From Candidatus Parabeggiatoa sp. nov. 2 (lineage in GTDB: Bacteria; Pseudomonadota; Gammaproteobacteria; Beggiatoales; Beggiatoaceae), in assembly GCA_002085445.1 (NCBI GenBank), contig NBMI01000009.1:5951-69950 (forward strand): a stretch of 64,000 nucleotides of DNA, read 5' to 3'. The notes below the pieces were generated by a model. It searched no databases and was not told the DNA's origin. It saw nothing but the letters and a program-made list of their open reading frames with translations. The position numbers and the translations under genes are program-made. Each line of letters opens with the position of its first letter. The first letter of the stretch is position 1. Shown here piece after piece: positions 22,980 through 63,743 of the stretch.

Positions 22980-23115
22980 ATTCACCCTCACAGTTGTTCA
23001 GGAAGGCAGTCGTCCAAACTAACGTTTGGACGTCCAAGCTAAAGCTTGGATTCCTGACAGGGCGATATAAAAAATCTTCAGAAACATACTCAGCAGAAAC
23101 GCTATATTGGCCTAC

Positions 23116-23314: not shown

Positions 23315-23321
23315 AAAAAAA

Positions 23322-23920: not shown

Positions 23921-24010
23921 GAAACAGAAACCGAAACGAAATGACATCTTTGTTCATTCTTCATTTTTTCAGATCGATATTCGCATTAATAGTGTGAGGG
24001 TAAAAAGAGG

Positions 24011-25426
24011 CTAAGGCGATGGGAAAGCTTTTTTATCAATTTGGCTAAGTAACCACAGCAAAGGTTCTGTTGCCCCATAAGCCTGAAAAGCCTTATTTTC
24101 GCTATCAGGTAAATGCCCTAATGCGCTGCACGTAAAAAATCGGTAATTAGTCAATTTAGATTCAAGGTTGCGGATAAAATTACCGAGCCCCCACTCAATA
24201 AAGTTGTCTTTACAAAGCTTATCAATCGCATCTGCTATCGTAGCAATGCTACTATCTAACTTCATCAATTCCATCGCGCCAGCTTCACCAATCCGCTCAG
24301 ATAAATCAAACGCATCCACCTTGTTAATGACAATAGCACACGGTTTATTGATAGTTTGATCACGCCTGACTTTATAACTTTTTTCCAAATTGATGATCAT
24401 CGTGTCAAAAGCATCATCAAGCATCATATCACTCGGCTTAATAGCCTTGTCATAATGCTCCAGACTTCTCTCATAATCAGCCATCAGTTCTGGAATCGAA
24501 AAAGGATCAATGATGAAAATCAGGCCGTGAAAATAATTGAAAAACTTGTGTCTTACCAATAGTTCACTACTTTTAACCGATTCGCCAGCAGCATCATAGA
24601 AATACATAATTTTTTCAGGTGTCCACCGCTTACTGCTCACAAAAAAGTTGAAAGCCGTTGGTGTCAATTCTGCCGTTTTTGCTGGTACAATGCCCTTACT
24701 AAAGTTTTGCGACACTCTATGATAAATAACTTCATTTTGCCTATCTAAAAAACGAATGTTCCAAGCATTTTGGGGAGCAACCTCTTCAATAAAACTTTTG
24801 ACGGCCGAAAACAGAAAACACGTTTTACCGACAGAAGGCCCACCTACGATAGGAATACAAATCGGTGTAGCTTCCCCAGTTTTAATTTCATGTTGACAAT
24901 TCGGGCAAAAAGCCGGTAATTTGCTTCTACCATTAAAGAAAGTAGTCGGTAACTTGTTTCCGCACTGGCATTTGCGTTTCAAGATACCATAGCTACTTGG
25001 AATAAGGCGGCTATGAATGTCTCCACAACTTGGACAACGATAATGGGGTAAATCGGCTTTAAAATGACAGATAGGACAAGCGAGAAAAACACGCCGCGAA
25101 AGTCGATAGACTTTATCAGTTCCCCATAAAAGACTGAAAGAAAGATAGATAGTCAGAAAAAAACTCGCCAGAATGGTAATATGAATGGCGCTCAACGCCA
25201 TAAAAAAGACTGTTCCAAAGATAATAACCGAGAGAGCAGCAAAGGCGGTGCCCACCGCGACAAATGCCCAAAAGAACCAAGGCTCACGAGACCAAAAATA
25301 GTCAGTCTTAGTCCAGTAACTTTTAGCTGAAGCAACATTTCTATACCAACTTTCAGCGAGAGTGTTGCCAAGCTCTTTGTAGCCTTTGCCAAAGAAATAA
25401 CTTTTAATTGCGGGTTGTTTTTCCAT
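24011..25426 (-). CDS. membrane-anchored zinc-ribbon GTPase (DO-GTPase2-like)
   Basis: This 471-residue protein has two N-terminal TM helices (about 51-75 and 78-100). Four Cys pairs forming two zinc ribbons follow (C117/C120 with C131/C134; C153/C155 with C174/C177), and then a GTPase domain: P-loop GGPSVGKT (195-202), G3 DAAG (278-281) and G4 NKVD (368-371), with G5-like CSAL near 435. This matches the DO-GTPase2 family described with GAP1 proteins in NTP-dependent biological conflict systems. The GAP1-type gene and a small 2-TM gene lie just upstream on the same strand. By analogy the GTPase is a switch controlled by its GAP1-type partner. No effector domain is seen in this protein itself. 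Confidence 0.75.
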   Translation of the reverse strand: MEKQPAIKSYFFGKGYKELGNTLAESWYRNVASAKSYWTKTDYFWSREPWFFWAFVAVGTAFAALSVIIFGTVFFMALSAIHITILASFFLTIYLSFSLLWGTDKVYRLSRRVFLACPICHFKADLPHYRCPSCGDIHSRLIPSSYGILKRKCQCGNKLPTTFFNGRSKLPAFCPNCQHEIKTGEATPICIPIVGGPSVGKTCFLFSAVKSFIEEVAPQNAWNIRFLDRQNEVIYHRVSQNFSKGIVPAKTAELTPTAFNFFVSSKRWTPEKIMYFYDAAGESVKSSELLVRHKFFNYFHGLIFIIDPFSIPELMADYERSLEHYDKAIKPSDMMLDDAFDTMIINLEKSYKVRRDQTINKPCAIVINKVDAFDLSERIGEAGAMELMKLDSSIATIADAIDKLCKDNFIEWGLGNFIRNLESKLTNYRFFTCSALGHLPDSENKAFQAYGATEPLLWLLSQIDKKAFPSP

Positions 25427-25639
25427 AATTAATATCCAAAGGGCGCATTTCTATTTTCCCGCTTTACCCCGAAGGGTGTGAATAGCAGTAAAACAACTTG
25501 GGGTAAAAGGGCTTACCACCTATCAGTTTATCAAAAAGGACTTTTTGACAAACAAAAATCCAGGGGCGTTGCCCCTGGCTTTAATAATACTTACCGAAGG
25601 GGCTAATAGAGGTTAACAGGAAGTTTTTTTTCAATCCAC
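25427..25639. repeat. gap within the GTPase cassette containing a GC-rich hairpin repeat
   Basis: A CCAGGGGCgttGCCCCTGG hairpin followed by CTTTAATAATAC (about 25,560-25,620) matches the blocks at 6,846 and 50,133. It separates the small 2-TM gene from the GTPase gene and might attenuate or terminate transcription. Otherwise nothing was seen. Confidence 0.55.
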
Positions 25640-25810
25640 TTAGGATGGCTTGACGTTATTTTTAAACGATATGCCATAGTTATAAATAGCGTGTCCACTA
25701 CCTATTAAAACACCTACTACAATGGCTACAATTGACACCGGAACAATGACATAAACTATTAAAAATAACCAAATAACAACTATCAGAAAAGCCGCAATGA
25801 ATTGTGGCAT
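25640..25810 (-). CDS. small two-TM protein in the GTPase cassette
   Basis: This is a 56-residue protein: MPQFIAAFLIVVIWLFLIVY, then VIVPVSIVAIVVGVLIGSGH, then a short polar tail AIYNYGISFKNNVKPS. Two closely spaced hydrophobic helices make up most of it. The start codon is preceded by GAGG at a good distance and lies 12 bp after the stop of the GAP1-like gene, which points to cotranscription. I recognise no family. It could be a membrane partner of the GTPase, whose own N-terminus also has two TM helices, or a membrane effector. Confidence 0.65.
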   Translation of the reverse strand: MPQFIAAFLIVVIWLFLIVYVIVPVSIVAIVVGVLIGSGHAIYNYGISFKNNVKPS

Positions 25811-25822
25811 TATTGAACCTCA

Positions 25823-28432: not shown

Positions 28433-28435
28433 AAG

Positions 28436-28799
28436 CTTTGGTAATGGGTAATAAGGGGCAAGGGGCAAGGGGCAATGGGAATAAGGCCAAGGAATAGGGG
28501 CAAGGGGCTAGGATTGAAGGCAATGCCGTTAAATATACTTAGCACGGGAATAATTTTCGAGGCAAAAGTTTTGCTTTGAAAAACTTTTGCTGAGAAAGGA
28601 CTTTTTGCACACCGCGTAGCGATTGGGTGTGTTTTTTAAAAGTGATCGACAGTTTTTCAGAGAAATAATTTAAAAACAGCCAACTGAAAGCTCAAGTCCC
28701 CTAAAGGGGACTAAATAATTATCTGAATATCTATAGCACAGCTTCGAGCCGAAGTTTCAACAGATCTCGCTTCGCTTGAGACGAAATTTGTGACCATCT
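28436..28799. other. upstream region of the GAP1-like gene: GGGGCAA repeats and a hairpin
   Basis: AAGGGGC/GGGGCAA heptamer-like repeats lie at about 28,455-28,510. A strong hairpin, GCAAAAGTTTT-gctttg-AAAAACTTTTGC, lies at about 28,561-28,592. It shares its stem sequence with the hairpins of the element that begins at 28,800. No gene was seen. Confidence 0.55.
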
Positions 28800-45421: not shown

Positions 45422-45970
45422 ATGCACATCTCGGCCCTAAAAAAATTATTTAATTCGACGATTATTTTATTCCTCACCGGAATACTCCTAACGTATTCGA
45501 CGACTGTTCGCTCGGCCTCGGCCGAGCAATTGGACACCACCGAACTCACTCACTTTATTGTCCTAATTCGGGACACTGGGATGATGAAGAAAAGATTTTA
45601 TCCGCAAAAGATGATTGTGGAGACGTTGCCCAAACTCCTGTTTGAAGGGGCGGCCGTGTTAAGGGACAAAAAACCTTTAAACCCGTCTTTACCTGTGTAT
45701 CATCCTGAGCGCGATCATCTCTCTGTAGTGTTTGTCGGCATACATCAAGATACTGAATCCCAAACTCAGTGCAAAAACGCGCCGGCCCTTTCGGCGTTGC
45801 CCAAACATCTTTTTCAGTGGCAACTGGTTGAGCAAGGACAAAATCAAGCCGCTTTCAAAAACTCTTTACGCCAGTGGATTAATAAAAGTTGTCGCGCCCA
45901 AGGCATTGTTTCTTCGAGTGTTTTAGCGGAAACGATGATTTTACTGCCGAAGAAGATTATGGTACCTTAA
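45422..45970 (+). pseudogene. N-terminal fragment of the transmembrane Hsp70-type protein (second copy)
   Basis: These 182 codons are closely related to the first 175 residues of the protein at 50,858. Shared segments include MHIS.LK at the start, TIILFLTGILLTYST (signal sequence), HFIVLIRDTGMMKK.FYP and LPKLLFEGAAVL, and LSALPKHLFQWQ. Similarity stops at VLAETM, and the frame closes 11 codons later. In another frame the stretch from about 45,925 to 46,045 still reads as coherent protein (SGNDDFTAEEDYGTLKCEWP), so the break is a mosaic of small rearrangements. Both the TM and the ATPase domain are lost. Confidence 0.78.
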
Positions 45971-45973
45971 AAT

Positions 45974-46273
45974 GTGAATGGCCTATTATGGCCGGCGTTT
46001 GTAGAGATGGGGATAACCATTATGAAGCCAGAAATACTTAAGGAAGTGCCAAGCTATGTTCCACAAAATCGTGGCAAAAATTATGTGTACCAAACACCTG
46101 ATATTTTAAAAACGCTTGTGAAACCACAGGTTCAAAAAATGCTGAGGGAAGGAAAGTCCAACTTCGTGGTGGATATAGAAAGGTATGGGTTCGTCACGAA
46201 AAACCATCCAGAATCCAAAGCAAAAGCCGATGTCCGAGTGTTTGTCTGTAGTCCGGCGGAGTGGGAGAAATGA
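45974..46273 (+). pseudogene. C-terminal fragment of a coiled-coil FAKV-family protein
   Basis: From about 46,000 the frame matches the last 80 residues of the protein ending at 63,743: EMGITIMKPEILKEVP against EMDVQLIKPQLLEKVP, then LKTLVKPQVQKM, FVVDIERYGFVT and DVRVFVCSPAEWEK. Everything before it (signal, periplasmic module, TM and coiled coil) is missing. Directly upstream is the head of an Hsp70-type gene, so one deletion plus later frameshifts appears to have joined the front of one gene to the back of the other. Confidence 0.75.
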
Positions 46274-46744: not shown

Positions 46745-49700
46745 ATGACTCAATACACCTCCAATTGTTTTGACTGTCTTTCTAAGATAGTGCAACTGTT
46801 CTTGTGTTTTGTGGTGTCGTCGTCACTCAATGTGGCTTATGCTGCAGTCACCCAACTCTCTGAAAACGACATTGGTTTCGCCAAAGTGTCGGGGAAAGTT
46901 GGGGTGGTTGAAAAAACGGCCGGTTGCTTGATTGTTTTTTCTCCACAACACAAGAAGTCCGTCAAGGATGTGTTTTGTCGATATGAACTGGGTAAACCAC
47001 GTCAATTTTATGTGGATGATGACAAAGGCCGAATAACAGTCATAGGAAAAAATACGGCAAACATTAGTGATGCAGTGCTACCAAAAGCGAAGAATCAGAA
47101 TGACTTTGTGAAGGCCATAACGGATTTTTTTAAAAGCAAAACGGGATACCAATTACCGGTCGATATGAATGCCATAGCGACATTCATGTCAAACCGTCAA
47201 TTTCCTAACGGGAATTTGGCGAATAAAAAACCAGCTAAGATTTATATCTTAGAGCAGGATTATTTGGCCGAAAACACGGATGACAAAACCTTTGCTTTCT
47301 TGGTGCATAATTTAATACAGCGTCGTGGAACGCTAGAGCGCACTGAAACAGAGATAGAAGCGCTTAAAAATAACCACGAAGCTTTCAAAGCGTTAACTAA
47401 CCTTGAGGTTAGAAAACTTCTCACACTGGAACTTGATAGCATTGTCAGTAAGGATGATCGCCTAAATATTCTCAAGAATGAGGATGTTAAAGCGATTTTA
47501 TTGGATAAAAAAGTTCAAGAATTGCTCAAAAACGATAACGTTATAAACGTATTGGGCAATAAGTCTGTTCCAACAGTCCTTGCCAATCCGGCCGTTCAAC
47601 GTATTTTGAGCAACGAAGACGCTATAGCTAAGTTATCTGACAAGAATACCGTCGCGTTTTTAAATCAAGAAGGGGTTCCAGAACTACTTAATAGTTCTAC
47701 TTTTCAAACATTTTTACAACAAAACCAAAGTGACTTGGAAGACAATCTGTTGTTGTTGATACTCAAATTTTCCATTTTTGTTGGTAGTCAATTAGAAGTC
47801 GTAGCTATTTTAATAGCCGCTTTGGTGATACTGTTTTTTCAGTGGCGGTTATCTAGGAAAACACGTCAATCCCTTTCCAATCTGGAAAAGGGTGAGCATG
47901 GCAATCAGAAAATTATCCAAAGCCTTTCCACGGTAGAAAACCAGATAAATGCTCATTCTGAAATGAGGCAGGCTCTTGATCGTATAGAAGACATGCTTGA
48001 GAAAAAATCCGGCATAAAGGCCGTTAAAGCGTTTATTCAAGTGCTATCACGTTGCGGCCTTCCCGATCTGAAAGACATTGAATTGACAAAATTGCCAGAA
48101 TGGGCAGAAACTCAGTTTGATAGCCAAACGTTGGTCGTGTTGCCACCCTCTAACTCTAGCTTGACGGTGACGGCTCTGCGTGACAAACAGGAAACGGTTG
48201 AGAATCTTCTTAAAGAACAACACTCGGCTGGTGAAAAGGCGGTGGTTGAGAAAACCATTGAAAAACACCCAGCCGGTGAAAAGAAACGGGGGCCGGTTGA
48301 GAAAACCATTGAAAAACACCCGGCTAGTGAAAAGAAACAGGGGCCTGTCGATAAAACCATTGAAATCCTAAATGAGTTGGATGTTCTTGTTCATAAAGAC
48401 TTCCAATCTGATGCTGAGATGTGGAAATATTTCCTTGAGACAGCCGCCGATAAAAAATGGCTAGATAATTTACTGGCTGCCTTACAACACGCTTTCTCCA
48501 TGAAAGAGGAATTAGAAAAAACCAAGCGCGAACGCGAACAATTGCAAACGGTACTTTCACAACGTTTTCATCTCACCCAACCTGAAGACAAGGCCTTTTC
48601 AGAATGGACAGAGGCACTTCTCAACCAACAAGGCACTTGGATTTGGTTGCAACCCAAGTCCATAGAAGGATTTTTTTCTAGCAGTGTTATCAGTCAGATT
48701 AAAGAAAATATTAGTCAGGTATGTGAAGACATGCAAAACATACCCGACGTTTCTGAACAACCATTATTACGCCTTGAAGAAGAAATCTCAAAGGATTGGA
48801 ATAATCTGCTCAACAACCCGTTCCAATCTCTTGACGACATGTCTAAGCAATTAGCGACATTGACTGATAAATGGCTAAACACCTTACTGATGTTTTTTAA
48901 ACACTATCTCTCGACGAAAGTCGAACGAGATAAATTGCAACAGCAGCTTTTAGAACGTTTTCTCCTCTCCAAGCCCCAAGATAAGAAAACTTCAATTTGG
49001 ATTGATGAACTCCTACAGCAACCGGGCAGATTGGTTTTATTACAACCTCATTTCATAAACGAACTGTTATCGTCTCAAAAAGACGCTATCCATCAAATGA
49101 GCAAACAGATGGCGAGAAGAAGTAAAGACGATCCGGTTTTACCACTGTTGCGCGTCAATGAAATCTCAATCGGTTGGAAGACATTTTTGGGAATGTCATT
49201 CCAGTCTAATGAGGAATTATGGGCGCATTTACATAAAGCCAGTGATGGCTGGCTAGGGACTTTACTTTCTGTTTTAGAACAGTATCATTTTCAGAAAGCA
49301 GAACAAAATCGCTTGCAAGCGGTTCTGTCAGAGCGATTTAGTCCTTCCCAAGAAGAACCCATTGACTTTTCGTTAGAAGGGTTTAGGACACAAAAAGGCA
49401 TTTGGCGTTGGTTGCAACTTTCCTTTATAGCGGAACTGCTGGCTTGTCAACACTGTGTCGCTCAATTGAAAATGGCAAAAGAAACCTTTCATGACCGTCA
49501 AAACCTCCTTAAAAACAACGTAGTCACTATCGAAGATATATTAGGGCTGTTGTACATGGATGAAGTGATGACCGGTTGTAAGGCTTTAGTCAGCAAACAA
49601 TTCCCATCCAATGACAAAATGCGGACTCAATTACTTGCTATGGGTAGCTGGATACATCGGTTACTTAGAGCCGATGATTTGTTGCAAGCCTACTTTGCCA

Positions 49701-50053
49701 AACAACCACAGTTTCGGCTTTTATCCCGTCATCTAGCGAATGCAGCGGGTGCATTGGAAGCCATGTTCATAGAAAGGGGTATAAAAGTATTAAAGCCGAC
49801 ATTACTTGAACCAATGCCAACAAAATACCAAATATTCGTGGTAGACTCTTCTCCTCCTACTGGCGCAAATCCAGTACTCAGAGCCTTAGACTTTGTTCAA
49901 CAACCGGTGAGCGAGAGACTCAATCCGAAGTCTCCTAACCATTGTTCTGAGTTTGTGGTGGATATACAAACCTACGGGTTTATTGACTCTAGCAATAAAA
50001 AACCGCTCTCAAAGATACAGGTAACTTTGACTAATCTCTCTGAGTGGAAATGA
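46745..50053 (+). CDS. bitopic FAKV-module protein with internally repeated cytoplasmic domain
   Basis: This 1,102-residue protein is unrecognised. It has a signal peptide (1-30, ending NVAYA). The FAKV module follows (about 38-150), beginning IGFAKVSGKVGVVEKTAGCL and containing FCRYELGK; its two Cys could form a periplasmic disulfide. A helical segment (about 195-340) is built of short repeats (EDVKAILLDKKVQELLKNDN), and a TM helix lies at about 345-368. In the cytoplasm a 17-residue repeat (VEKTIEKHPAGEKKRGP, about three copies) is followed by three diverged copies of a roughly 130-residue unit marked by LSQRFHLTQPEDKAFSEW, LLERFLLSKPQDKKTSIW and LSERFSPSQEE. A C-terminal domain (LLQAYF...SEFVVDIQTYGFI) is shared with 61,116-63,743. 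AAGGAAA supports the ATG at 46745. The Hsp70-type gene follows after 800 bp of repeats. Confidence 0.75.
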   Translation: MTQYTSNCFDCLSKIVQLFLCFVVSSSLNVAYAAVTQLSENDIGFAKVSGKVGVVEKTAGCLIVFSPQHKKSVKDVFCRYELGKPRQFYVDDDKGRITVIGKNTANISDAVLPKAKNQNDFVKAITDFFKSKTGYQLPVDMNAIATFMSNRQFPNGNLANKKPAKIYILEQDYLAENTDDKTFAFLVHNLIQRRGTLERTETEIEALKNNHEAFKALTNLEVRKLLTLELDSIVSKDDRLNILKNEDVKAILLDKKVQELLKNDNVINVLGNKSVPTVLANPAVQRILSNEDAIAKLSDKNTVAFLNQEGVPELLNSSTFQTFLQQNQSDLEDNLLLLILKFSIFVGSQLEVVAILIAALVILFFQWRLSRKTRQSLSNLEKGEHGNQKIIQSLSTVENQINAHSEMRQALDRIEDMLEKKSGIKAVKAFIQVLSRCGLPDLKDIELTKLPEWAETQFDSQTLVVLPPSNSSLTVTALRDKQETVENLLKEQHSAGEKAVVEKTIEKHPAGEKKRGPVEKTIEKHPASEKKQGPVDKTIEILNELDVLVHKDFQSDAEMWKYFLETAADKKWLDNLLAALQHAFSMKEELEKTKREREQLQTVLSQRFHLTQPEDKAFSEWTEALLNQQGTWIWLQPKSIEGFFSSSVISQIKENISQVCEDMQNIPDVSEQPLLRLEEEISKDWNNLLNNPFQSLDDMSKQLATLTDKWLNTLLMFFKHYLSTKVERDKLQQQLLERFLLSKPQDKKTSIWIDELLQQPGRLVLLQPHFINELLSSQKDAIHQMSKQMARRSKDDPVLPLLRVNEISIGWKTFLGMSFQSNEELWAHLHKASDGWLGTLLSVLEQYHFQKAEQNRLQAVLSERFSPSQEEPIDFSLEGFRTQKGIWRWLQLSFIAELLACQHCVAQLKMAKETFHDRQNLLKNNVVTIEDILGLLYMDEVMTGCKALVSKQFPSNDKMRTQLLAMGSWIHRLLRADDLLQAYFAKQPQFRLLSRHLANAAGALEAMFIERGIKVLKPTLLEPMPTKYQIFVVDSSPPTGANPVLRALDFVQQPVSERLNPKSPNHCSEFVVDIQTYGFIDSSNKKPLSKIQVTLTNLSEWK

Positions 50054-50857: not shown

Positions 50858-53800
50858 ATGCACATCTCGACCCTAAAAAACCGATTTAATTATACGATTA
50901 TTTTATTCCTCACCGGAATACTCCTAACGTATTCGACGAGTGTTCGCTCGGCCGAGGCCGATAAAAAATTGGACATCACCGAACGGACTCATTTTATTGT
51001 CCTAATTCGGGACACCGGGATGATGAAGAAAAAATTTTATCCGCTAAAGATGATTGTGGACACGTTGCCTAAACTGTTGTTTGAAGGGGCGGCCGTGTTA
51101 AAGGGCAATACACCCTTAAAGCCGACTTTACCGGTATATCATCCTGAGCACGATCATCTCTCCGTCGTGTTTGTTGCCATACATAAAGATGTGCGTTCAA
51201 CGGCCTGTAAAAACGATCCGGCCCTTTCGGCGTTGCCCAAACATCTTTTTCAGTGGCAACCGGTTAAGCAAGGACAAAATCAAGCCGCCTTCACGCGCTC
51301 TTTGCGCCAATGGATTAAGAAAAGTTGTCGCGCCCAAGGTTATGTCTCGTCCAACGTGTTGGCGGAAATGATGAGTTTGTCTTACGTTGAAAAGAAAATG
51401 GCTAACGAGAATTCTGGTAAGTTATTTTCCAAAACCATTCTCATTTTTCTGGGTAATGATGCCTATTATGGCGGCGCCAACCCAAGTAGAGAACTTGGTT
51501 CGTTAAAACAAATTCAGAAGGTTAGAGATATAAAAGAGGCCGCTCAGAAAATTGATGATCTCAATAAGGCCTTTCATATCGTCACGCCCCCCGATTGGGT
51601 ATTTACAATCCATCCCAAAACCCGTCAATTCCAGCGCGGCAATATTGATCACGGTAATACCTTAAGATATAGAGTCGCTGAAATCCAAACACTAGATAAC
51701 CAGAATAAATTCCTTGACTACCATCAAACCATCAAATTAGATCGAGTCGCGATGTCCAATGACAAGCTCAAATTGGTGCAACCGGGTGGCGCAGAGATTA
51801 TATTAGGCATTCGGCACTCAAAGCGATTGCAGCCGGACAAACTTGAGTTAGCTTTTGCCGATAAAAACGGCAATGATTGGCAAATCGGTCAACACGCGTT
51901 GCCGCGTTCAACCGTTATTGATATTCGCGCATGCAAAAAATCTAAAAAATGTCAAGTACAAAATGATGGCACGCTTCATGTTCCCCTGCTCGGTGTTGTA
52001 ATGAATGATCCTCACCTTCGGGCCGATGATCCGGCCCTTACGCCCGGGCAAATCCGTTTTAAAATCAGATTTCGTTATAACGCCGAAGGTGTCTATACGC
52101 ATCACTACGTCGATACAAAGTTAAAAACGATTGATATTCAACCGGTTAAACCGTTAGTCATTTCAGAAAGCCTTTTTAGTGCTCGGATTTTTCCGCAAGT
52201 CGTCTTGGATAATAAAACCCTTGCTGCCCAATACGATCCCTCTAAAGATTCACCACAAGGGTTAACACAAGATGTCGCACGCGCTCGCCTTGAGGCCGAG
52301 AAAACGGCCAATGAGAATAAAGCCATTATCGGTGTTATTGTTTCAGTACTGATACTGTTGATCATTGCTTGGCTACTGCTTTATAAATTCAAATACCACC
52401 GTCGCTTCAAACCGAAATTGGAGTGGGAACCGGCAAAAAAAATTGATATTAATTTTAATCAACAGCCGGGCGCGATTATTAAAGTAGGTGTATTGACTGT
52501 CAGAAACGAAGGAGAGGTTCCGTGGTTTGGTAAATTGTTTGGGAATAAGGACTATCCTGACTATAAGGTCGAATTTTTCTTAAATTACAGTAACGATCAG
52601 TTGAGAAAGTGCGGAGTCATACTGTCTGAAAAGAAAGCAGCACCCTTTTATTTCACGGAAAAGAAAACAGATACGGCCTCCCATTCTTCAGAAGACAAGA
52701 AGATATCCGAAAAAGCCTTCTACGGTGCCTTGAAACAAGTTCAACAAATCGATCCCAAAAGTTTATTTGGTTCTTCACGGGAACGCAATACAGAGACTAC
52801 TCCGCTTGTGCCTCAGATTGAACATCGGGTAAGTCACGAGACACCTATTTATGTCTTTTTTGCCACCGATGTCATTGAAGATTTCAAGCATTCTGAGCAA
52901 AAAATCGTAGAAGGGCAGATTACCGTGACTTTTGGGGGAAAAGGCAAAAATGTTCAGATAGCCGTGGAAATGTTGCATGACAATAAACCGGTTGCACGTA
53001 AAGAGATTGAGTTCAATCTCGAAGTGATGCCAGAGCAACCCAAGCCACCACGAGTCACTTACCAACCCAATGCCGAAAAGCTTTACTTTCAGAAAGACAA
53101 ATCTATCCGCATTGGCACACTCCGTTTTGAAAGCCAAGCGGAACACTATTTTGCTAAGCCCTTTAAGGGCCGTTTCAACATACAAAGTTATAAGAATAAT
53201 CTGTCTTTAGAAAACAACCCTGTGGCGCTTCTTCCCAAAGGCGAAGAAGTTGAGGTGCGGCCCCGTCAAACCTCAGAAGTCGATGTGGTTGTCTTCTGTG
53301 ATGGTGAGAGCATATTGAATCCAGAGCCGCGCCAAGACTACACCTTTAACTTGACGGGTCAGTTTGCCCATGGTTCAGAGCAGGTGCCTCATACATTTAC
53401 CCTGCTCCGCGATCCCACTCGGGCCGACATCGCGTTGGAGATTGTCCAATTTAAGAACACCTATAGTCTCTATTGGCAACAAAAGGATGGAGAACAAAAG
53501 GATGGAGAACAGAGAGCGTTTGAAAAATATCCGAGTTTTCGATTGAGAGTCGAGGGGAGAGAAGAAGCCGAAGGCCATTCGCTTGACAACGGCATCTTAA
53601 ACTTGGCGCCTAATCTCGTTAAATTTGATAAAGGTACCCCGGCCGTCACGATTTTTGAAATACATCTGGGCAACACCGGCAAATCGGGACAAGGTTGGGT
53701 CAAACTCCATCTGACGATGGAACTGAAATTTCAACCCCAGGTACGGATGGCCATAAAACTTCACCAAGGGTACCAGATTGAAAATTCACTCCATCTCATC

Positions 53801-56077
53801 ACGAGCGATCACCAAGGAGAATTTAACGGCGATGAAATGATTACCGTCAAAGAAGGCGAACCGGACGAAAAACTCGTGGTTCAAATCAATGCTGGGCAAA
53901 CCATTCAAGATATTGTCGGTGGGCGAATTGACACTGACTCTGGTAGCATTAACGCTTTTCTTGATATAGAAATTCAGGATGACGACGGACAAAAACGTTC
54001 ACACGAACTCACCATTGTCGCGCCAATTGGAGTCGAAAAACTCCCCCATCCCAATTGGCTCTGTATTGACTTTGGCACCTCCGCCATTGTCGCGGCGGTT
54101 GGCACCCAAGATAAGCCCTACTTTTTACCGCTTCAGAAATTAGTCAAAGAACATGATCCGGCCCTCAACCTTGAGGACTATGATCCAAACAACACCGAAC
54201 GGGGCACCGATTTTCTGCCCAGTCAAATCGTTTGCGATGCCGATTTACGCCAAAGTGAAACCCAAGACGACAAGATAAGAAAAGGTTATCCAAGATACCA
54301 ACCGGCTTCCTTGAAACCGGGCGATCCCGATTTTATCGGCTTACCCGCCACAACGCCGCGACTCCGCGAATATCCGGGGCGCGTGATTTTTTCACTCAAA
54401 AGCTGGCTGGCGCAACCGTCAGAAACTATCTCATTGCCGGAAAGGGTTAAATTTTACCAATTGGATAACCTAGGCAATATCGTGACGGAAAAAGATGAAG
54501 AAGATAATCACAAACCGGTAGAGATTGAGCGGCCTCAGTTGCCATTGAAAGACTTAGTGGAATCTGGGTTTGCGGCCTTAGCCGAAGGCTATATCATCGC
54601 CCTTGATGTGTTTGAAAAAGGCGGGCAACTCATCTTGTCTCACCCAAACACGTTTACCGCCTTTCACAAGAAAAAATTACACGACATTGCTTGGAAAGCA
54701 CTCAATCAACGTTTAGGCATTGCCTTACCGGAGCGCCTTCAACTCATTAGCGAATCGGATGCTGTCGCTTATCACTATTGTCGGCAACGGATGTTAGAGG
54801 CGCGGCATTGTAGTAGTGATAAGGAACTGCAACGCATTTTGGAGAAACTGCGTAACAATAACGGGTGGGAATGCCTATTAGTCTACGATTTTGGGGCCGG
54901 CACACTGGATTTATCTTTAGTACATATCCGTTGGAATCAAGAAGGTACCTATCCCGAACAGTGGCAAGTCGAAAATCGCTTAGGCGTGCCGATTGCCGGC
55001 AATCATCTTGACAGTTTACTGGCGCGACTGATAGATGGCTTGCTCAGAGACGAATCCGTTCTGAACCCGGAAGTGTTTGAATATCAATATCCGGTTGTCG
55101 ATAAACAACTGAAAGGAGACAGTAATGAACAACTTGATCATCGCCAAGCCGTATACAAATTGTGGCAAAATATCCGCGAAGTCAAACACAGTGCTGACTG
55201 GCAGGAAGGCAAGCCATTTCGCGTCCTAGTTGGAAGTAAAGGTGGTACGGAGGTTGTTAGATACAAAGAAAATGCGTTTCTCCCTAGCCCTGAAACCGCG
55301 CCAGAAGTCAGTTCGGAATCCCGTTCGGAATCACAAGAGCGTTCTGAGGTTGAAAAACCCGTCTTAGAAACGGATGGCGACCAAATCTACCTCAAGATTC
55401 CCGCGGTAACGGTACATAACTATCCACCGTTGCAAGCGTTTATTGAGTTCGTCGCAGATACCGTCGTCAATGAATTGTTAGGCAGTGCGGAAATAGCCGC
55501 GCAACAAGTCAATACCGTGGTGGTTTCCGGAAGAGGCGCACTTTGGCAAGGCTTACGTGAGCGCGTCTGGAACAAATTCCCGGAACGCTGCGAAAAGCCT
55601 AAGTTGGACAAAGAACAAGTCAAAAATGCCGTTGTCAGTGGCGCGATTGCTTGGCAAGAATTAAGCGAAATTAACGCGATTGAGCCAAAGATAAAACCAC
55701 GCTTAGCCATTTTGCGTGAACAAGATAATTTCTTAACACCGGAAGAAGACTGGGAAAAAGAGCCTATTGACTTGCGAGCCACTAGCACTTTCCGTCTGGT
55801 TCAGATTTCTCACCAGAATCCTGATCCAAAAAAAGACTTCAACTCGTTGCACCGTCATTTTTACATTTTATTGGATCAGATACGTCGTGAGACGATGTGG
55901 AAAGCTGATCCTTGGTTATTTGTCAGCAAACAAGAACAACAGGGGCAAACCGTTATCAAACTGCAAAATAAACAAGGGCAAGGTTTTGACTTTGCCACAG
56001 TTGGCTCAGTCGGCACGGTTTCATCCACGCCACCGTGGCCGATTGGTAATATTTTATTGGAACCCGATAATCAGTGA
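50858..56077 (+). CDS. transmembrane protein with vWA-like periplasmic region and C-terminal Hsp70-type ATPase
   Basis: This 1,739-residue protein has a signal sequence (TIILFLTGILLTYSTSV, about 13-30). A periplasmic region (about 40-480) starts THFIVLIRDTGMMKKKFYPL and later has TILIFLGNDAYYGG, a strand/loop pattern like a vWA domain but without the full DxSxS metal site. One TM helix lies at about 488-508 (AIIGVIVSVLILLIIAWLLL). A roughly 550-residue beta-rich region follows. The Hsp70/actin-type ATPase is marked by WLCIDFGTSAIVAAVGTQ (about 1,066, phosphate 1), LLVYDFGAGTLDLSLVHI (about 1,341, phosphate 2) and VVVSGRGALWQGLRERVW (about 1,554, adenosine). The substrate-binding half is absent. 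It could couple a periplasmic signal to an ATP-driven cytoplasmic switch. No ribosome site is evident; TAACTGA repeats abut the start, and another TAACTGA array supplies the stop. Confidence 0.82.
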   Translation: MHISTLKNRFNYTIILFLTGILLTYSTSVRSAEADKKLDITERTHFIVLIRDTGMMKKKFYPLKMIVDTLPKLLFEGAAVLKGNTPLKPTLPVYHPEHDHLSVVFVAIHKDVRSTACKNDPALSALPKHLFQWQPVKQGQNQAAFTRSLRQWIKKSCRAQGYVSSNVLAEMMSLSYVEKKMANENSGKLFSKTILIFLGNDAYYGGANPSRELGSLKQIQKVRDIKEAAQKIDDLNKAFHIVTPPDWVFTIHPKTRQFQRGNIDHGNTLRYRVAEIQTLDNQNKFLDYHQTIKLDRVAMSNDKLKLVQPGGAEIILGIRHSKRLQPDKLELAFADKNGNDWQIGQHALPRSTVIDIRACKKSKKCQVQNDGTLHVPLLGVVMNDPHLRADDPALTPGQIRFKIRFRYNAEGVYTHHYVDTKLKTIDIQPVKPLVISESLFSARIFPQVVLDNKTLAAQYDPSKDSPQGLTQDVARARLEAEKTANENKAIIGVIVSVLILLIIAWLLLYKFKYHRRFKPKLEWEPAKKIDINFNQQPGAIIKVGVLTVRNEGEVPWFGKLFGNKDYPDYKVEFFLNYSNDQLRKCGVILSEKKAAPFYFTEKKTDTASHSSEDKKISEKAFYGALKQVQQIDPKSLFGSSRERNTETTPLVPQIEHRVSHETPIYVFFATDVIEDFKHSEQKIVEGQITVTFGGKGKNVQIAVEMLHDNKPVARKEIEFNLEVMPEQPKPPRVTYQPNAEKLYFQKDKSIRIGTLRFESQAEHYFAKPFKGRFNIQSYKNNLSLENNPVALLPKGEEVEVRPRQTSEVDVVVFCDGESILNPEPRQDYTFNLTGQFAHGSEQVPHTFTLLRDPTRADIALEIVQFKNTYSLYWQQKDGEQKDGEQRAFEKYPSFRLRVEGREEAEGHSLDNGILNLAPNLVKFDKGTPAVTIFEIHLGNTGKSGQGWVKLHLTMELKFQPQVRMAIKLHQGYQIENSLHLITSDHQGEFNGDEMITVKEGEPDEKLVVQINAGQTIQDIVGGRIDTDSGSINAFLDIEIQDDDGQKRSHELTIVAPIGVEKLPHPNWLCIDFGTSAIVAAVGTQDKPYFLPLQKLVKEHDPALNLEDYDPNNTERGTDFLPSQIVCDADLRQSETQDDKIRKGYPRYQPASLKPGDPDFIGLPATTPRLREYPGRVIFSLKSWLAQPSETISLPERVKFYQLDNLGNIVTEKDEEDNHKPVEIERPQLPLKDLVESGFAALAEGYIIALDVFEKGGQLILSHPNTFTAFHKKKLHDIAWKALNQRLGIALPERLQLISESDAVAYHYCRQRMLEARHCSSDKELQRILEKLRNNNGWECLLVYDFGAGTLDLSLVHIRWNQEGTYPEQWQVENRLGVPIAGNHLDSLLARLIDGLLRDESVLNPEVFEYQYPVVDKQLKGDSNEQLDHRQAVYKLWQNIREVKHSADWQEGKPFRVLVGSKGGTEVVRYKENAFLPSPETAPEVSSESRSESQERSEVEKPVLETDGDQIYLKIPAVTVHNYPPLQAFIEFVADTVVNELLGSAEIAAQQVNTVVVSGRGALWQGLRERVWNKFPERCEKPKLDKEQVKNAVVSGAIAWQELSEINAIEPKIKPRLAILREQDNFLTPEEDWEKEPIDLRATSTFRLVQISHQNPDPKKDFNSLHRHFYILLDQIRRETMWKADPWLFVSKQEQQGQTVIKLQNKQGQGFDFATVGSVGTVSSTPPWPIGNILLEPDNQ

Positions 56078-57563: not shown

Positions 57564-58559
57564 ATGCGAATCAACAAAATACAACTCAAAAACTTTAAAG
57601 GATTTGATGAGAAAGAATTTCATTTTAATCCGCAATTTAATGTGCTGATTGGTGATAATGGTGCCGGCAAAACGGCGATTTTGGATGCGCTTGCTGTGAG
57701 TGTCGGCTCGTATTTGTTAGGGATTGGAGAGGCGCAAGCCAGATCAATTTATCAAGAGGATATCAGGCGCAAAGATTCCGGAGATTCGTTAGAGCCTCAA
57801 TTGCCGGTTATCGTTAGTAGCGAAGGTGAAATTGATGACCGAAAAATAAAATGGCAACGCAGTAAAACAAATTTCAAGGGTAGAACCACTGTCAAAGAGG
57901 CAAAGGAATTAATAGAGATTGCCAAATTTCACCGTCAACAAGTCAGTGATGGAAAGCCGGTTATTTTACCGGTCATTTCTTATCATCGCGCCGGCAGACT
58001 CTGGAAAGAACGGCGACAAACAGTTAACGCTCACCCAAAAGCTTCTCGCATGAGTGGCTATTTTAATAGTTTAAAACCGGCTTCGAGCAGTAAAATCTTT
58101 TCAGAATGGTTTAAAACGATGGAAATTGCCTCTATCCAGAAAGACACCACTCGCATTGAGGTTGTCAAAAACGCCATTATTAATTGTATCCCAGATTTAG
58201 AGGCGATTTTTTTTGATGTCATAGAAGAAACTTTAGTGACTGTCAAAATGGAGGCGGATAAACGACACAGCTTTCATTATGACTTATTAAGCGATGGTTT
58301 TAAAAATATGATCGGCATGGTTGCTGACATTGCCTATCGTTGCGTCACGCTGAATCCTCATATGAACGAACAAGCCTTGGCAAAAACTTATGGTGTTGTT
58401 TTAATTGATGAAATTGACCTGCTTATGCATAAAAAATGGAAAAAACGAGTGGTCAATGACTTAAAAAAGACTTTTCCCCAGATACAATTTATCGTCTCCA
58501 CCCATTCGCCTTTTATTGTAGAATCTCTACAAAGCGATGAAGTGCTCAATCTTGACTGA
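57564..58559 (+). CDS. SMC-like AAA ATPase (AAA_21 type), paralogue of 5,649-6,653
   Basis: This 331-residue protein opens MRINKIQLKNFKGFDEKEFH and has Walker A GDNGAGKT (about 30-37), the conserved IVLPVISYHRAGRLWKERR-type segment (about 135-153), Walker B VVLIDEIDLLMHK (about 277-289) and VSTHSPFIVESL (about 310-321). It aligns along its whole length with the gene at 5,649, including the SRMSGYFNSLKPASSSKIF region, and ends where that gene is frameshifted. ATPases of this kind often act with a nuclease partner, but none is adjacent here. The CTACAAA repeat abuts the start codon. Confidence 0.85.
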   Translation: MRINKIQLKNFKGFDEKEFHFNPQFNVLIGDNGAGKTAILDALAVSVGSYLLGIGEAQARSIYQEDIRRKDSGDSLEPQLPVIVSSEGEIDDRKIKWQRSKTNFKGRTTVKEAKELIEIAKFHRQQVSDGKPVILPVISYHRAGRLWKERRQTVNAHPKASRMSGYFNSLKPASSSKIFSEWFKTMEIASIQKDTTRIEVVKNAIINCIPDLEAIFFDVIEETLVTVKMEADKRHSFHYDLLSDGFKNMIGMVADIAYRCVTLNPHMNEQALAKTYGVVLIDEIDLLMHKKWKKRVVNDLKKTFPQIQFIVSTHSPFIVESLQSDEVLNLD

Positions 58560-58794: not shown

Positions 58795-60834
58795 ATGATG
58801 ATTGCAAATACACAAGTTTTGCTCAACGGTTGGGTGAATGCTTTGTCTCTTGCCATAGCATTTTGCCTGTTGGTGGTTGGTGTTGCCTCTGCTCAGCAGA
58901 ACGGTGCTAATACTAATCCGGCGCCGGTGGAGAACACCCCAAGCCGCCATAAAATTGCCTTTGCCAAAATCACTGGCACGGTTGGTGAGTCTGAGAAAAC
59001 GGCCAGTTGCGTGATTGTTTGGTTAGCCAGCGAACCCAGCACTAAACCTATTTACTGTAGATATGAACTTGAGAAAAACGCAAAGTTTCTTCGAGATGAT
59101 GATAATGGTATTAATCCAGATAAAGTCGTCAATTTGTATTCTTCTCAGGATCAGAACGACTTTGAACAGAGAATCCAAGCTTGGTTTAAAAACAAACTCC
59201 AGTTGAACCTAGCTCAGAATGAGCTACAACTTATTGCTAAGTTGATGATGTCAAGCACTACGTTTTCTCCGAATAGCCTCTTTGCAATTCAACCGCCGGC
59301 ACGTTATGACGACTTCGTCTTACCTGACAGTTTACCTGCGAGTGATAAGACGAACGCTAAAGACAAGAAACTTGAAGAGTACAAAACATTTGCTGCCGAA
59401 GTACATCGTTTCATTCCAGAAAAGATGGCTGAGATAGCAGAAAATATACCAAATAATCCGGTGCCTACTACGGAGAGCACTCCAAACTTTCAAATTGCCT
59501 TTGCCAAAGTCTTAGACATGGTTGATAAGCCTGAGAAAACGGCCAGTTGCGTGATTGTTTTGTTAGCCAGCGAACCCAGCACTAAACCTATTTACTGTAG
59601 ATATGAACTTGAGAAAGACACAAACTTTCTTCGAGATGATGATAATGGTATTAATCCAGATAAAGTCGTCAATTTGTATTCTTCTCAGGATCAGAATGAC
59701 TTTGAACAGAGAATCCAAGCCTGGTTTAAAAACAAACTCCAGTTGAACTTAGCTCCTAATGAGCGACAACTTATTGCCAAGTTGATGTCAAGCAGTACGT
59801 TTTCTCCGAATAGCCTCTTTGTAATTCAACCGCCGGCACGTTATGAGTTCGTCTTACCTTACACTTTACCAGCGAGTGATAAGACGAACGCTAAAGAGAA
59901 GAGAGTTGAAGAGTACAAAACCTTTGTTGCCTCAGTACATGGTTTTATTCCGAAAAAGATGGCTGAGATAGCAGAAGATAATCCTAATCCAGCAATTACA
60001 AAGAACACCCTAAGCCTTAAAGTTGCCTTTGCCAAAGTCTTAGGCACGGTTCGTGAGTCTGGGGAAACCGCCAGTTGCGTTATTGTTTCGTCAACCGGCG
60101 CTCCTAGCGATAAAAATGTCTATTGTAGGTATAAATATCCGATAGAAGGCCTATTTTTTGATTCGGAAGACGGGCTAAATCTGTCGGTTGTCAAGTCGGA
60201 TTCGGTTCCTAATATCCAGAAACACTTCATTGATTGGTTTACAACCAAATATCCTCAGTATCATTACCTCATGATTAATGATGTGAACGAGATTTTGGCG
60301 TTTATGTCAAATGAGGCGCAAGAATTTCCTAAAGATAAAACGGTATTTGGTAAAAAGCCTGAAACGATCCTGTTGACAAAATTTGAGAGTTTAACTACGC
60401 CGCCTAGTCATCGGAATGACTTAAAAAATGCTCATCAAAACCAGTTTGCTTGGCTAGTACATCAAGCAATTGGAGGGATGATTGTTCCCAACTTGGATGA
60501 AACTCCGGCTAAAACGCCGCCGACTGATAACAAACTCGTAACATTAGAAAATGTCATTATTTGGTTAGGGCTTGGTATCGTTGTTATTGTCATATTGGCT
60601 CTATTATGGTTATTATTCTTCTTGGCTAAGAAAAATATCCATTTAGTGACTGAACTTTGCAATAATATTTTCTCGGCACCTGACAAGAAAAGTTCTCAAC
60701 GGCAAAAACAGGAAATCGACTCGGCGGCGTTGCGGCAAGATTTTGAGAAGCTCCGTGAAGAAGTGAAAAATGCGCGCTTAGAGCACAGAAAACTTGTTCA
60801 ACAAATCACGCACAAACCGGAGTCCAAACTTTAG
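58795..60834 (+). CDS. bitopic protein with three tandem FAKV modules, truncated C-terminus
   Basis: This 679-residue unrecognised protein has a signal sequence (about 1-35, AIAFCLLVVGVASAQQ). Three copies of the FAKV module follow (about 52-210, 232-390, 409-560). Each module opens (I/V)AFAK(I/V) and contains KTASCVIV, then YCRYE or YCRYKY, and a helical part (QRIQAWFKNKLQLNLA, ELQLIAKLM). Copies 1 and 2 are nearly identical in DNA, so that duplication is recent. A TM helix lies at about 586-612, followed by about 65 cytoplasmic residues. The frame stops at a CCAAACTTTAGTTTGG repeat that supplies ESKL and the TAG. The paralogue at 61,116 continues with a long coiled coil, so this copy is truncated. 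AAGGAAA supports the start. Confidence 0.78.
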   Translation: MMIANTQVLLNGWVNALSLAIAFCLLVVGVASAQQNGANTNPAPVENTPSRHKIAFAKITGTVGESEKTASCVIVWLASEPSTKPIYCRYELEKNAKFLRDDDNGINPDKVVNLYSSQDQNDFEQRIQAWFKNKLQLNLAQNELQLIAKLMMSSTTFSPNSLFAIQPPARYDDFVLPDSLPASDKTNAKDKKLEEYKTFAAEVHRFIPEKMAEIAENIPNNPVPTTESTPNFQIAFAKVLDMVDKPEKTASCVIVLLASEPSTKPIYCRYELEKDTNFLRDDDNGINPDKVVNLYSSQDQNDFEQRIQAWFKNKLQLNLAPNERQLIAKLMSSSTFSPNSLFVIQPPARYEFVLPYTLPASDKTNAKEKRVEEYKTFVASVHGFIPKKMAEIAEDNPNPAITKNTLSLKVAFAKVLGTVRESGETASCVIVSSTGAPSDKNVYCRYKYPIEGLFFDSEDGLNLSVVKSDSVPNIQKHFIDWFTTKYPQYHYLMINDVNEILAFMSNEAQEFPKDKTVFGKKPETILLTKFESLTTPPSHRNDLKNAHQNQFAWLVHQAIGGMIVPNLDETPAKTPPTDNKLVTLENVIIWLGLGIVVIVILALLWLLFFLAKKNIHLVTELCNNIFSAPDKKSSQRQKQEIDSAALRQDFEKLREEVKNARLEHRKLVQQITHKPESKL

Positions 60835-61115
60835 TTTGATCAAAGTAGTACAACGGATACAGTACAACGGATACTCGAAATAAACGGATAAAAAAACCTA
60901 AAAAAATTCCTAATTTTACAAAATTTATTAATTCCTAAAATCCGTTTATTTAGCTCCGCTGACCTACGGTTCGCGTATCCGTTGTACTTGGGCAGCTTAA
61001 CTTAATGGCATTGAGGCCAGCGTCCAAACTTGAAAAAATCAGTTTAGTCCAAAAATACGTACTTTCAGTACAATTTCAAAACAAATTTCTTCAACAAACC
61101 GTTAAGGAGAATACG
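60835..61115. repeat. repeat-containing gap between FAKV paralogues
   Basis: CGGATACAGTACAACGGATA / CTCGAAATAAACGGAT units (about 60,843-60,892), AATCCGTTTATTTAGCTCCG / TATCCGTTGTACT (about 60,938-60,990) and the CTTAACTTAATGGCATTGA element end (about 60,997-61,015) fill this gap. The open frame of the next gene begins inside that last repeat. Its first 37 codons are rejected in favour of the ATG at 61116. Confidence 0.7.
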
Positions 61116-63743
61116 ATGAAGACTGCAAATACACAAATTTTGCTCAAAGATTGGGTGAATGCTTTGTTCCAAGCAATCGCATTTTGCCTATTGTTATTGG
61201 GTTCTGTCGGGGTGGGTGTTGCCTATGCTCAGGAACAGGGACTAGCACAGAGTGCGGGAACGGGCACTCCAAGCCATGAAATTGCCTTTGCCAAAGTCTC
61301 AGACACGGTTGATAAGCCTGAGAAAACGGCCGGTTGCGTGATTGTTTGGTTAGCCAGCAAACCCGACACCAAACATATCTACTGTAGATATGAACTTGGG
61401 AAAAACGCAAAATTTCTTCGAGATAATGATATTGGCATCAATCTGTCTGATGTAAAGTTGTATCCTTCTCAGAATCAGACAAAATTTGAAGAGAAAATCC
61501 AAGCCTGGTTTAAAAAGAAACTCAAGTTGGAGAACCTGGCTCCGAATGAGCTACAACTTATTGCGGAGTTGATGTCAAGCACTGAGGAAACGTTTTCTCC
61601 GAATAGCCTATTTCCAATTCAACCGCCTACACGTTATGACTTCGTCTTACCTAACAGTTCACTTGCGAGTAATGAGAGGAAAGCTGGAGACAAGAAACTT
61701 GACTACAAAACCTTTGCAGCCGAAGTACATCGTTCTATTCCAAAAAAGATGGCTGAGATAGCTAACAAGGAAGCAAGTACTGCTAAACAGGTAGCTGCTA
61801 GTCAAGTCACGGCTGCTGATGATAAAACAGAAGCAGACAAAGTGGATAAGAAAGCGGCTGGCGAGGTTGATGAAGAAGCGGCTGATAATAAAGAGGCTAA
61901 GGAGACTGATGACAAAGCGAATGCTGACACCACACTGACTGACAACAAACTCAGCGAGCTTGAAGATACCATTGCTCAGTTATGGTTTGGCATTATTCTC
62001 GTTCCCGTTGTTATATTGGCTCTGTTAGGGTTTTTCTTGGCTAAGAAAAATACTCATTTAGTGACTGAACTTCGCAATGATATTTCCTCGGCACTTGACG
62101 AGAAAATTTATCAACTGCAAAAGCAACAGCAAATTGAGTATAAAACAACGTCACAGCAACATTTCGACAAGCTCCGTGACGAACTGAAAAATGTGCGCTT
62201 AGAGCCACTTGTTCAACAACTAACGCCGGAAAAACCGGAAGAACCGGCTATTTCCGCTCGCCCATCCAAACCAGAGTCAGAACCCACGCCGCCGCCAAGG
62301 CAATCAGAAGTCAAGGCGCAACTGGCGTCATCCAAACGAAATCAAGAACTAGAACAGGAGAAAAATCGACTAGAACACGACTTGAAGACTGCACAGAACC
62401 AACTGTCTTCAGAGCAAGAACAACGCGAACAGACCGATAAAACCCTAAAAGAAACCCTGGACAAACTGAATACGGCCACCAACAAACATCAACTAGCCCA
62501 CAATGCCTTAGAAGGCATAAGAACACAGCTTAACCAAGTCCTTGAAAACTCTCAACAAATGCCAGAATACGCTGAGGCAGAGAAAACATTGGACGGCCTG
62601 AAAACGGTCATCACACAATACACGGGCGAGAAGGATAAACGTGAAAAAGCCGACAAGGTATTAAAAGACATCCGCACTGAGCTAAACAAGGTTGTTAAAG
62701 CTAAATTAGCCGAAGACGAAGACGCTGAAAAAACCTTGGAATCCATCCAAACGGGTGTGAACACTGTCATTCGTACTTTGAGAACGAAAGACAAGGAACT
62801 GAAAACGCTCACTCAACATGAACAGGCCTTGCAGCAAGACGTTTTAACTGCTCTCATCCGTGAGCCGCTGGATGATTCAAAAGAATGGACCGAAAAACGA
62901 CTTGAAGAATTACGGACAGAAATCAATCAGTCCCTAGAAAAAACGAAGACAGAACGGGAGTCGCTCTCCCAACAATACGAAACAGAAAAGACGACACGTC
63001 AACTGCGAGATGTGGCCCTAGAAGAGGCCCAAACCGAACTGAAAACGCTCACTGAAAATCAACAAACATTGCAAAACGTGCTGCATGGCCGTTTTCGCCT
63101 CGTTAAACCAGAAAACATCGACTTCTCCCATTGGACAACGGCCCTAATAGAACAACAAGGAACTTGGCGTTGGGCACAACTGACACTGGTAGGAGAACTG
63201 TTGGCTTGCGAAACATCCGTCAAACAAATTAAAGAACAAGGCGACAAAAAAGCCCACGACATCCTAGCGACTTTAGAGCTAGACAAGCCTTTGGAACAGT
63301 GGAACACGTTAGTCGGCCACCTCTTTGAGTCCGATACGCAATTATGGAAAGCTTTACGGGATACAGATGGCGGCAAATGGCTCAACCGCTTATTGAGAGC
63401 CTCGGATTTGTTACAAGCCTACTTTAAACAGGAACAACAATTTGGTTTGTTATCTCAACACCTGTCCAATGTCTCTGGCATCTTACAGGCGGTGTGTGCC
63501 GAAATGGATGTACAATTGATAAAACCCCAATTGCTTGAAAAAGTCCCAGACGACATCCCAGAAAATAATTATCGCTACACCCCTTATAAGCTTTTCAAAA
63601 CGCTTGTGAAACCACAGGTACTAGAAAAACTCAAGACAGTGCCTAAGTTTGTAGTGGATATCGAAACTTATGGCTTTGTCACGGCTGATAACCCTAAACC
63701 CGATGTGCGAGTGTTTGTCAGCAGTCCTGCGGAATGGGAATGA
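61116..63743 (+). CDS. bitopic FAKV-module protein with long cytoplasmic coiled coil
   Basis: This 875-residue unrecognised protein has a signal sequence (about 15-42, AIAFCLLLLGSVGVGVAYAQ) and one FAKV module (about 54-210: IAFAKVSDTVDKPEKTAGCV, IYCRYELGKNAKFLRDND). A low-complexity Ala/Lys/Asp linker (about 220-280) leads to a TM helix (about 287-312). A cytoplasmic Pro-rich stretch (PSKPESEPTPPPRQSE) and a long heptad-rich coiled coil (about 400-655) follow. The conserved C-terminal domain (about 658-875: RFRLVKPENIDFSHWTTALI, QGTWRWAQLTLVGELLAC, FKTLVKPQVLEKL, FVVDIETYGFV) is shared with 46,745-50,053 and with the fragment at 46.0 kb. AAGGAG before the ATG at 61116 fixes the start. The architecture resembles a receptor: periplasmic sensing module, TM helix, signalling coil. 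Confidence 0.78.
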   Translation: MKTANTQILLKDWVNALFQAIAFCLLLLGSVGVGVAYAQEQGLAQSAGTGTPSHEIAFAKVSDTVDKPEKTAGCVIVWLASKPDTKHIYCRYELGKNAKFLRDNDIGINLSDVKLYPSQNQTKFEEKIQAWFKKKLKLENLAPNELQLIAELMSSTEETFSPNSLFPIQPPTRYDFVLPNSSLASNERKAGDKKLDYKTFAAEVHRSIPKKMAEIANKEASTAKQVAASQVTAADDKTEADKVDKKAAGEVDEEAADNKEAKETDDKANADTTLTDNKLSELEDTIAQLWFGIILVPVVILALLGFFLAKKNTHLVTELRNDISSALDEKIYQLQKQQQIEYKTTSQQHFDKLRDELKNVRLEPLVQQLTPEKPEEPAISARPSKPESEPTPPPRQSEVKAQLASSKRNQELEQEKNRLEHDLKTAQNQLSSEQEQREQTDKTLKETLDKLNTATNKHQLAHNALEGIRTQLNQVLENSQQMPEYAEAEKTLDGLKTVITQYTGEKDKREKADKVLKDIRTELNKVVKAKLAEDEDAEKTLESIQTGVNTVIRTLRTKDKELKTLTQHEQALQQDVLTALIREPLDDSKEWTEKRLEELRTEINQSLEKTKTERESLSQQYETEKTTRQLRDVALEEAQTELKTLTENQQTLQNVLHGRFRLVKPENIDFSHWTTALIEQQGTWRWAQLTLVGELLACETSVKQIKEQGDKKAHDILATLELDKPLEQWNTLVGHLFESDTQLWKALRDTDGGKWLNRLLRASDLLQAYFKQEQQFGLLSQHLSNVSGILQAVCAEMDVQLIKPQLLEKVPDDIPENNYRYTPYKLFKTLVKPQVLEKLKTVPKFVVDIETYGFVTADNPKPDVRVFVSSPAEWE

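Follow-up and report, generated by a model that had tools for sequence, protein, structure and literature searches.

A Periplasmic Module with an Invariant Cysteine Pair in Putative Receptors Paired with a Giant Hsp70-like Membrane Protein in the Beggiatoaceae

Results

Gene Organization of the Receptor Locus

The analysed stretch of 64,000 nucleotides (the window) is part of contig C295 in an 8.45 Mb genome (G000, 91% complete). Three of its genes (A, B, and C) encode putative membrane receptors that share a periplasmic module of ~165 residues (the FAKV module, table 1). The earlier note had counted this module once, three times, and once in the three genes, and both the motifs and pairwise BLASTP comparisons confirm the count. 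Each of the five modules contains F-A-K-(V/I) followed by (K/E)TA(G/S)C and (F/Y)CRY, and their pairwise identities range from 29% to 82% with E-values of 2e-13 to 4e-95, so that the likeness is not due to chance. The cysteine motifs were originally given as KTA(G/S)C and (F/Y)CRYE, which holds in general but not for the third module of gene B (ETASC and YCRYK).

A signal sequence before the module and a single transmembrane (TM) helix after it had been described for the family and are seen in all three proteins: each carries a hydrophobic signal core ending in AxA and one TM helix after the module or modules, and K/R residues are more common after the TM helix than before it. The description of the cytoplasmic parts as long and containing coiled coils applies to gene C and, with respect to length, to gene A, but not to gene B, which has a cytoplasmic tail of ~65 residues. 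The hydrophobic period expected of a coiled coil is strong in C, weak in A, and indistinguishable from shuffled sequences in B. An ortholog of gene A is found in genome G001, which is placed in the same genus (53% identity over the whole length). A gene for a giant Hsp70-like protein is located between genes A and B, and the relic upstream of gene A retains the first 174 residues of a second giant that are 79% identical to the intact one. As a side observation, residues 240–330 (approximately) of gene A form helical repeats between the module and the TM helix with a weak likeness to STI1/ubiquilin repeats; this likeness is best in G010 (locus L051, 3793–6756), where the match (E 1.7e-4) is below the cut-off.

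Table 1. Receptor genes, giant partner gene, and their domains in the window
Feature	Position	Strand	Description
Relic	45422–46267	+	5' part of another giant gene, truncated, then a stop-containing CTD fragment; precedes gene A
Receptor gene A	46745–50053	+	1102 aa; signal peptide, one FAKV module, helical periplasmic stretch, TM, three tandem CTD copies
FAKV module of A	46859–47356	+	Profile match 5.6e-65
CTD copies of A	48554–50050	+	CTD profile matches; 48554–48949 and 48947–49327 partial, 49325–50050 full
Giant partner	50858–56077	+	1739 aa; signal peptide, periplasmic domain, TM (about residues 484–513), long middle part, C-terminal Hsp70-like (ASKHA) ATPase domain
Receptor gene B	58795–60834	+	679 aa; signal peptide, three FAKV modules, TM, short tail without CTD
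FAKV module B1	58945–59448	+	
FAKV module B2	59485–59994	+	82% identity to B1
FAKV module B3	60013–60510	+	Divergent
Receptor gene C	61116–63743	+	875 aa; signal peptide, FAKV module, TM, long coiled coil, CTD
FAKV module C1	61269–61787	+	AlphaFold2 model, pLDDT 82, pTM 0.80
Coiled-coil segment of C	62049–63080	+	Hydrophobic period 3.46, reached by 0/500 shuffles
CTD of C	63081–63740	+	GrpE-like by fold search, weakly by profile

Conservation and Predicted Fold of the FAKV Module

An alignment of 18 modules from seven genomes, with identities down to 21%, shows that both cysteines are invariant (18 out of 18 modules); the invariant positions are A21, C23, C39, Y41, D52, and H154. The cysteine pair therefore holds across homologues, and so does the claim that the module is always exported, which is correct wherever the N-terminus of the receptor is present. 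Receptors with an intact N-terminus have a hydrophobic signal core, in nearly all of them followed by an AxA-type site, and homologues of sufficient length contain one TM helix after the module with at least as many K/R residues beyond the helix as before it.

The statement that the module corresponds to no described domain is supported: sequence searches of Pfam, NCBIfam, PHROG, and the PDB returned no match. An AlphaFold2 model built on 13 sequences (pLDDT 82, pTM 0.80) consists of five strands, two helices, one further strand, and finally a long helix at the C-terminus. In this model the neighbouring strands b2 and b3 carry C23 and C39, a placement compatible with a cross-strand disulfide. 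The predicted fold has no significant match among PDB or viral structures (best Foldseek E 0.35 in the PDB), and the best VIA-align Z is 3.5 (rmsd 3.7–4.9, 91–93 residues aligned). Weak matches to RNase H/ASKHA-type folds recur in the PDB and BFVD, none of them significant, and this assignment was rejected. The searches support the module as a domain undescribed in these libraries, and no description of the FAKV module or of a membrane GrpE-like receptor was found in the open-access literature searched. The exported module may bind a ligand or sense the state of the envelope.

Module pairs among B1, B2, and C1 display dN/dS values of 0.75–0.92, compared with 0.29–0.38 for the conserved cytoplasmic domain described below and 0.39 for the N-terminus of the giant, with confidence intervals that overlap those of the module. 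Either relaxed or diversifying evolution of the sensor part would fit the module values, which fall short of proof of positive selection.

Distribution of the Receptor Family

The order was sampled with 43 genomes from one family and 25 genera, and GTDB lists 25 Beggiatoaceae genera (PMC11172852). The module was identified by its profile in 6 out of 43 genomes, and a seventh genome (G028) contains a divergent copy with both cysteines that was found via its cytoplasmic domain. Apart from the window's own genome, none of 369 genomes of the class matched the module and none of 398 genomes of the phylum matched the cytoplasmic domain or the ATPase domain of the giant, which argues against a wide distribution. 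A scan of genome contigs with one peptide pattern hit only Thiotrichaceae, Parabeggiatoa, and Thiomargarita records; the pattern was derived from a tighter alignment set, as the 14-row alignment contained no stretch conserved enough for a scan. A phage or plasmid trait was considered and rejected (searches found the module in neither plasmids nor viral contigs, and no cytoplasmic domain in phages). Judged by these searches, the receptor family is confined to the giant sulfur bacteria of the Beggiatoaceae as far as tested.

Pairing of a Giant Hsp70-like Protein with the Receptors by Gene Content and Linkage

The giant protein encoded between genes A and B was overlooked in the earlier note. Its C-terminal domain (about residues 1060–1620) contains the motifs IDFGTS, YDFGAGTLDLS, and SGRGALW at residues 1070, 1343, and 1557, corresponding to the phosphate-1, phosphate-2, and adenosine-type motifs of Hsp70/DnaK, and it aligns with DnaK (hhalign probability 89, E 2e-6) and matches HscA (E 4e-5). 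In contrast to Hsp70/DnaK, the giant appears to contain the ATPase part only, as the last domain of a membrane protein of 1739 residues. Pfam searches show no substrate-binding domain in it, and the Pfam HSP70 family is matched below threshold (13.7 bits against a cut-off of 20.6 in one homologue, no match in the window protein). The periplasmic N-terminus was considered as vWA-like because of a FIVLIRDTG stretch noticed by eye, and this was rejected after a profile comparison with the linked vWA proteins (probability 0.8%).

The ATPase domain of the giant is present in 8 out of 43 genomes of the order, which comprise all seven receptor genomes and G015 (hypergeometric probability about 2.5e-7, calculated by hand and ignoring shared ancestry). 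In five genomes (that of the window, G001, G028, G033, and G061) the giant gene precedes receptor genes and has the same orientation, an operon linkage that is accompanied by one partial fusion. In G033, a single protein joins two FAKV modules and a TM helix to the latter half of the ATPase domain, with 49% identity across 424 aa (E 1e-131). Gene content and linkage thus give good support to the receptor and the Hsp70-like protein forming a pair. As the ATPase is found in every receptor genome, an uncharacterised system that senses stress or infection is suggested.

The genome of the window encodes a second giant (L125, contig C372, 4744–10371) with an 85% identical ATPase region, and its N-terminus is a small domain (MSTTKIFRQGISTLLNS...) in common with the neighbouring ORF (1570–2640). 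This small domain looks like an effector-associated adaptor domain and is located beside a kinase-like gene. In G061 (L129, contig C340, 1–5656) a kinase-like ORF and a vWA-like ORF, identified by reading, precede the giant gene.

Probable Likeness of the Cytoplasmic Domain to GrpE

Genes A and C and most complete homologues end in a conserved cytoplasmic domain of 220 residues (CTD), which is missing from gene B and from one protein in G025. The earlier reading of the family, which is partly upheld, missed both the domain shared by A and C and its likeness to GrpE. One receptor paralog in the window's genome (L035, contig C197, 5519–6703) contains a TM helix and the CTD but lacks the FAKV module; it adjoins a CAP-like gene, a gene for a 1135-aa protein, and two vWA genes.

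A relation to GrpE was suspected from the secondary structure of the CTD ahead of the fold search. A structure model built on five sequences (pLDDT 80.5) shows a bundle of helices that ends in a small beta part, and the first seven Foldseek ranks in the PDB are all GrpE chains (173–213 alignment columns, best E 0.059). Comparison with a profile of 31 GrpE sequences gave a score of 27, whereas 200 column shuffles scored 14 ± 2.5 (maximum 23.4) and reversed GrpE scored 23.4. When GrpE sequences were compared with the CTD one by one, 7 out of 31 scored above all 150 decoys (Mann–Whitney 1.7e-5, an optimistic value because the GrpE sequences are themselves related). At a low threshold, the profile alignment covers the whole domain, and in it the last strand region of the CTD is matched with the beta wing of GrpE. 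No member of the CTD family matches PF01025 in Pfam, hhalign gives a probability of 10–15%, and comparing it directly with the GrpE encoded in the window was without success. Since no test reached a family threshold, the domain is named GrpE-like and not GrpE.

Overall, a resemblance of the CTD to GrpE is supported by fold and profile comparisons, although not proven. The CTD is predicted to have, in the same order as GrpE, a coiled coil, a helical bundle, and a small C-terminal beta part, and the register is consistent across profile alignments. The CTD differs in belonging to a membrane receptor, in its length of ~220 residues with an extra N-terminal helical part, and in scoring below every family threshold. 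A membrane-anchored exchange factor for Hsp70 is known from eukaryotes in the form of yeast Snl1, which carries a BAG domain. An exchange-factor-type domain would be tethered to the membrane in both cases, but the Snl1 type is eukaryotic, uses the BAG domain, and has no periplasmic sensor.

The most probable alternative takes the CTD for a simple adaptor, a bundle of helices with no relation to GrpE, in which case the ATPase of the giant would be controlled in another way and the receptor and giant genes would merely be clustered. The weak profile evidence for GrpE agrees with such an adaptor, as do the 50 VIA-align matches listed for the CTD, which are generic helix bundles (best Z 9.5) with no GrpE among them. 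The strict co-occurrence of receptor and giant, the G033 fusion, the uniform GrpE chains at Foldseek ranks 1–7, and the low-threshold alignment of the C-terminal beta part with the GrpE beta wing all argue against it, and we regard a plain adaptor as possible but doubtful. Control of the ATPase by a GrpE-like CTD is a step to which we assign about an even chance.

Gene Neighborhood and Relation to Known Systems

A further part of the system missed previously is a cluster of tubulin, vWA, and CAP genes around the receptors of related genomes. In G010, G025, and G028 the receptor gene is followed by a gene for a CAP-domain-type exported protein (assigned by Pfam in G010 and by likeness in G025 and G028) and then by a gene for a ~1,100-residue protein without a clear family. 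The receptor contigs of the same three genomes also encode vWA membrane proteins and Tubulin_2. Tubulin_2 is likewise present in G001 and G033, and no match was found in the window's genome or in G061 (91% and 59% complete, respectively). A 1,140-residue subtype of Tubulin_2 occurs in six genomes, five of which contain the receptor (p 1.3e-4). A DO-GTPase2 gene (PF19993, 29.8 bits, over the cut-off) is located directly upstream of the G010 receptor, and a DO-GTPase2-like gene with a sub-threshold match to PF19993 (24.5 bits) lies ~21 kb upstream of gene A; no DO-GTPase was noticed on reading the remaining receptor stretches. GAP1-N2 is found in the window's genome (25823–28468 of the window), G001, and G010 and is absent from G025, G028, G033, and G061.

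Within the window, positions 20157–28468 contain GrpE (+), DnaK (+), DO-GTPase2-like (−), and GAP1-N2/GAP1-M (−) genes, which form the type of cluster that Kaur et al. (2020) reported. These genes are located 18–38 kb upstream of the receptors, and RND-pump and PBP4 genes intervene. The GTPase-centric conflict systems of that study (DO-GTPase/GAP1-N2; eLife 9:e52696, PMC7159879) include HSP70-only proteins without a peptide-binding part. The receptor systems share with them the tubulin-like and membrane vWA proteins, an HSP70-type protein apparently without a peptide-binding part, the DO-GTPase2 next to the G010 receptor, the GrpE, DnaK, DO-GTPase2-like, and GAP1-N2 genes upstream of the receptors in the window, and filamentous or giant-celled hosts. 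They differ in the new FAKV module, the GrpE-like tail of the receptor, the trans-membrane nature of the giant Hsp70-like protein, and the CAP protein. Furthermore, GAP1 is unlinked to the receptors and missing in four out of seven receptor genomes.

Proposed Mechanism and Alternative Explanations

In the proposed mechanism, the FAKV module would act as the periplasmic sensor domain of single-pass membrane receptors. An outside input, either a ligand or a change in the envelope, would be passed in the full-length form through the TM helix and the coiled coil to the GrpE-like CTD, which would shift the neighbouring Hsp70-like ATPase, itself anchored in the membrane, to another nucleotide state. 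The ATPase might then cause the products of the clusters in the relatives (tubulin-like, vWA-membrane, and helical proteins) to assemble or to be released, with a threshold-type stress or anti-invader response as the putative output; such a role is suggested by the company that the receptors keep. As gene B and the G025 protein lack the CTD, not every receptor could act through it. The reading of the family as periplasmic sensor receptors with a GrpE-like tail that controls an Hsp70-like ATPase may, in our estimate, equally well prove right or wrong. The complete chain, in which the FAKV sensor acts through the GrpE-like exchange domain on the membrane-anchored Hsp70-like ATPase and this in turn gates a tubulin/vWA assembly, is proposed only tentatively; this trans-membrane principle was not found described in the literature searched.

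A different explanation is that the receptors assemble with the giant into a structural complex of the envelope, such as a trans-envelope scaffold or a motor anchor involved in cell shape, gliding, or septation of the giant filaments, in which the module binds an envelope component constitutively and senses nothing. Membrane, tubulin-like, and exported CAP-domain proteins among the partners would suit such a complex, and the coiled coil in gene C hints at spanning. In a core structural part one would not expect the patchiness of this family (7 out of 43 genomes of one family), nor tandem duplication, relics, a variable number of modules, and module dN/dS values near 0.8, which makes a structural complex unlikely. 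Less probable again is that the module is an antigen-like or decoy domain, which would provide surface-variable recognition for an anti-phage or self/non-self system while the tail is only a scaffold. The recent module duplication (B1/B2, 82% identical), the dN/dS above that of the tail, and the defence-type ATPases adjoining at 56260 and 57564 speak for it. Against it are module dN/dS intervals that reach down to about 0.5 with no excess over 1 and invariant core residues, which point to conservation of the fold and perhaps of the ligand.

If the complete chain holds, ligand sensing would be turned directly into chaperone nucleotide exchange. The reading as sensor receptors, if correct, would show a receptor that signals through the nucleotide exchange of an Hsp70 and would add a sensor input to the predicted GTPase/tubulin/HSP70 systems. 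The CTD and the ATPase domain of the giant offer a pair that can be tested, and the module offers a compact exported domain with an invariant cysteine pair.

Additional Genes in the Window

The region between the giant gene and receptor gene B encodes an ATPase (57564–58559) that matches the PADLOC model PtuA of the Septu system (4e-119). An AAA ATPase at 56260–57180 matches PADLOC PDC-M07A (2e-54); the copy in the window ends early, and a 77% identical homologue is located on the G001 contig that carries the giant and the receptor. Two similar long genes on the minus strand (10262–12562 and 14605–16941) both begin with MDIWKW and are probably recent paralogs.
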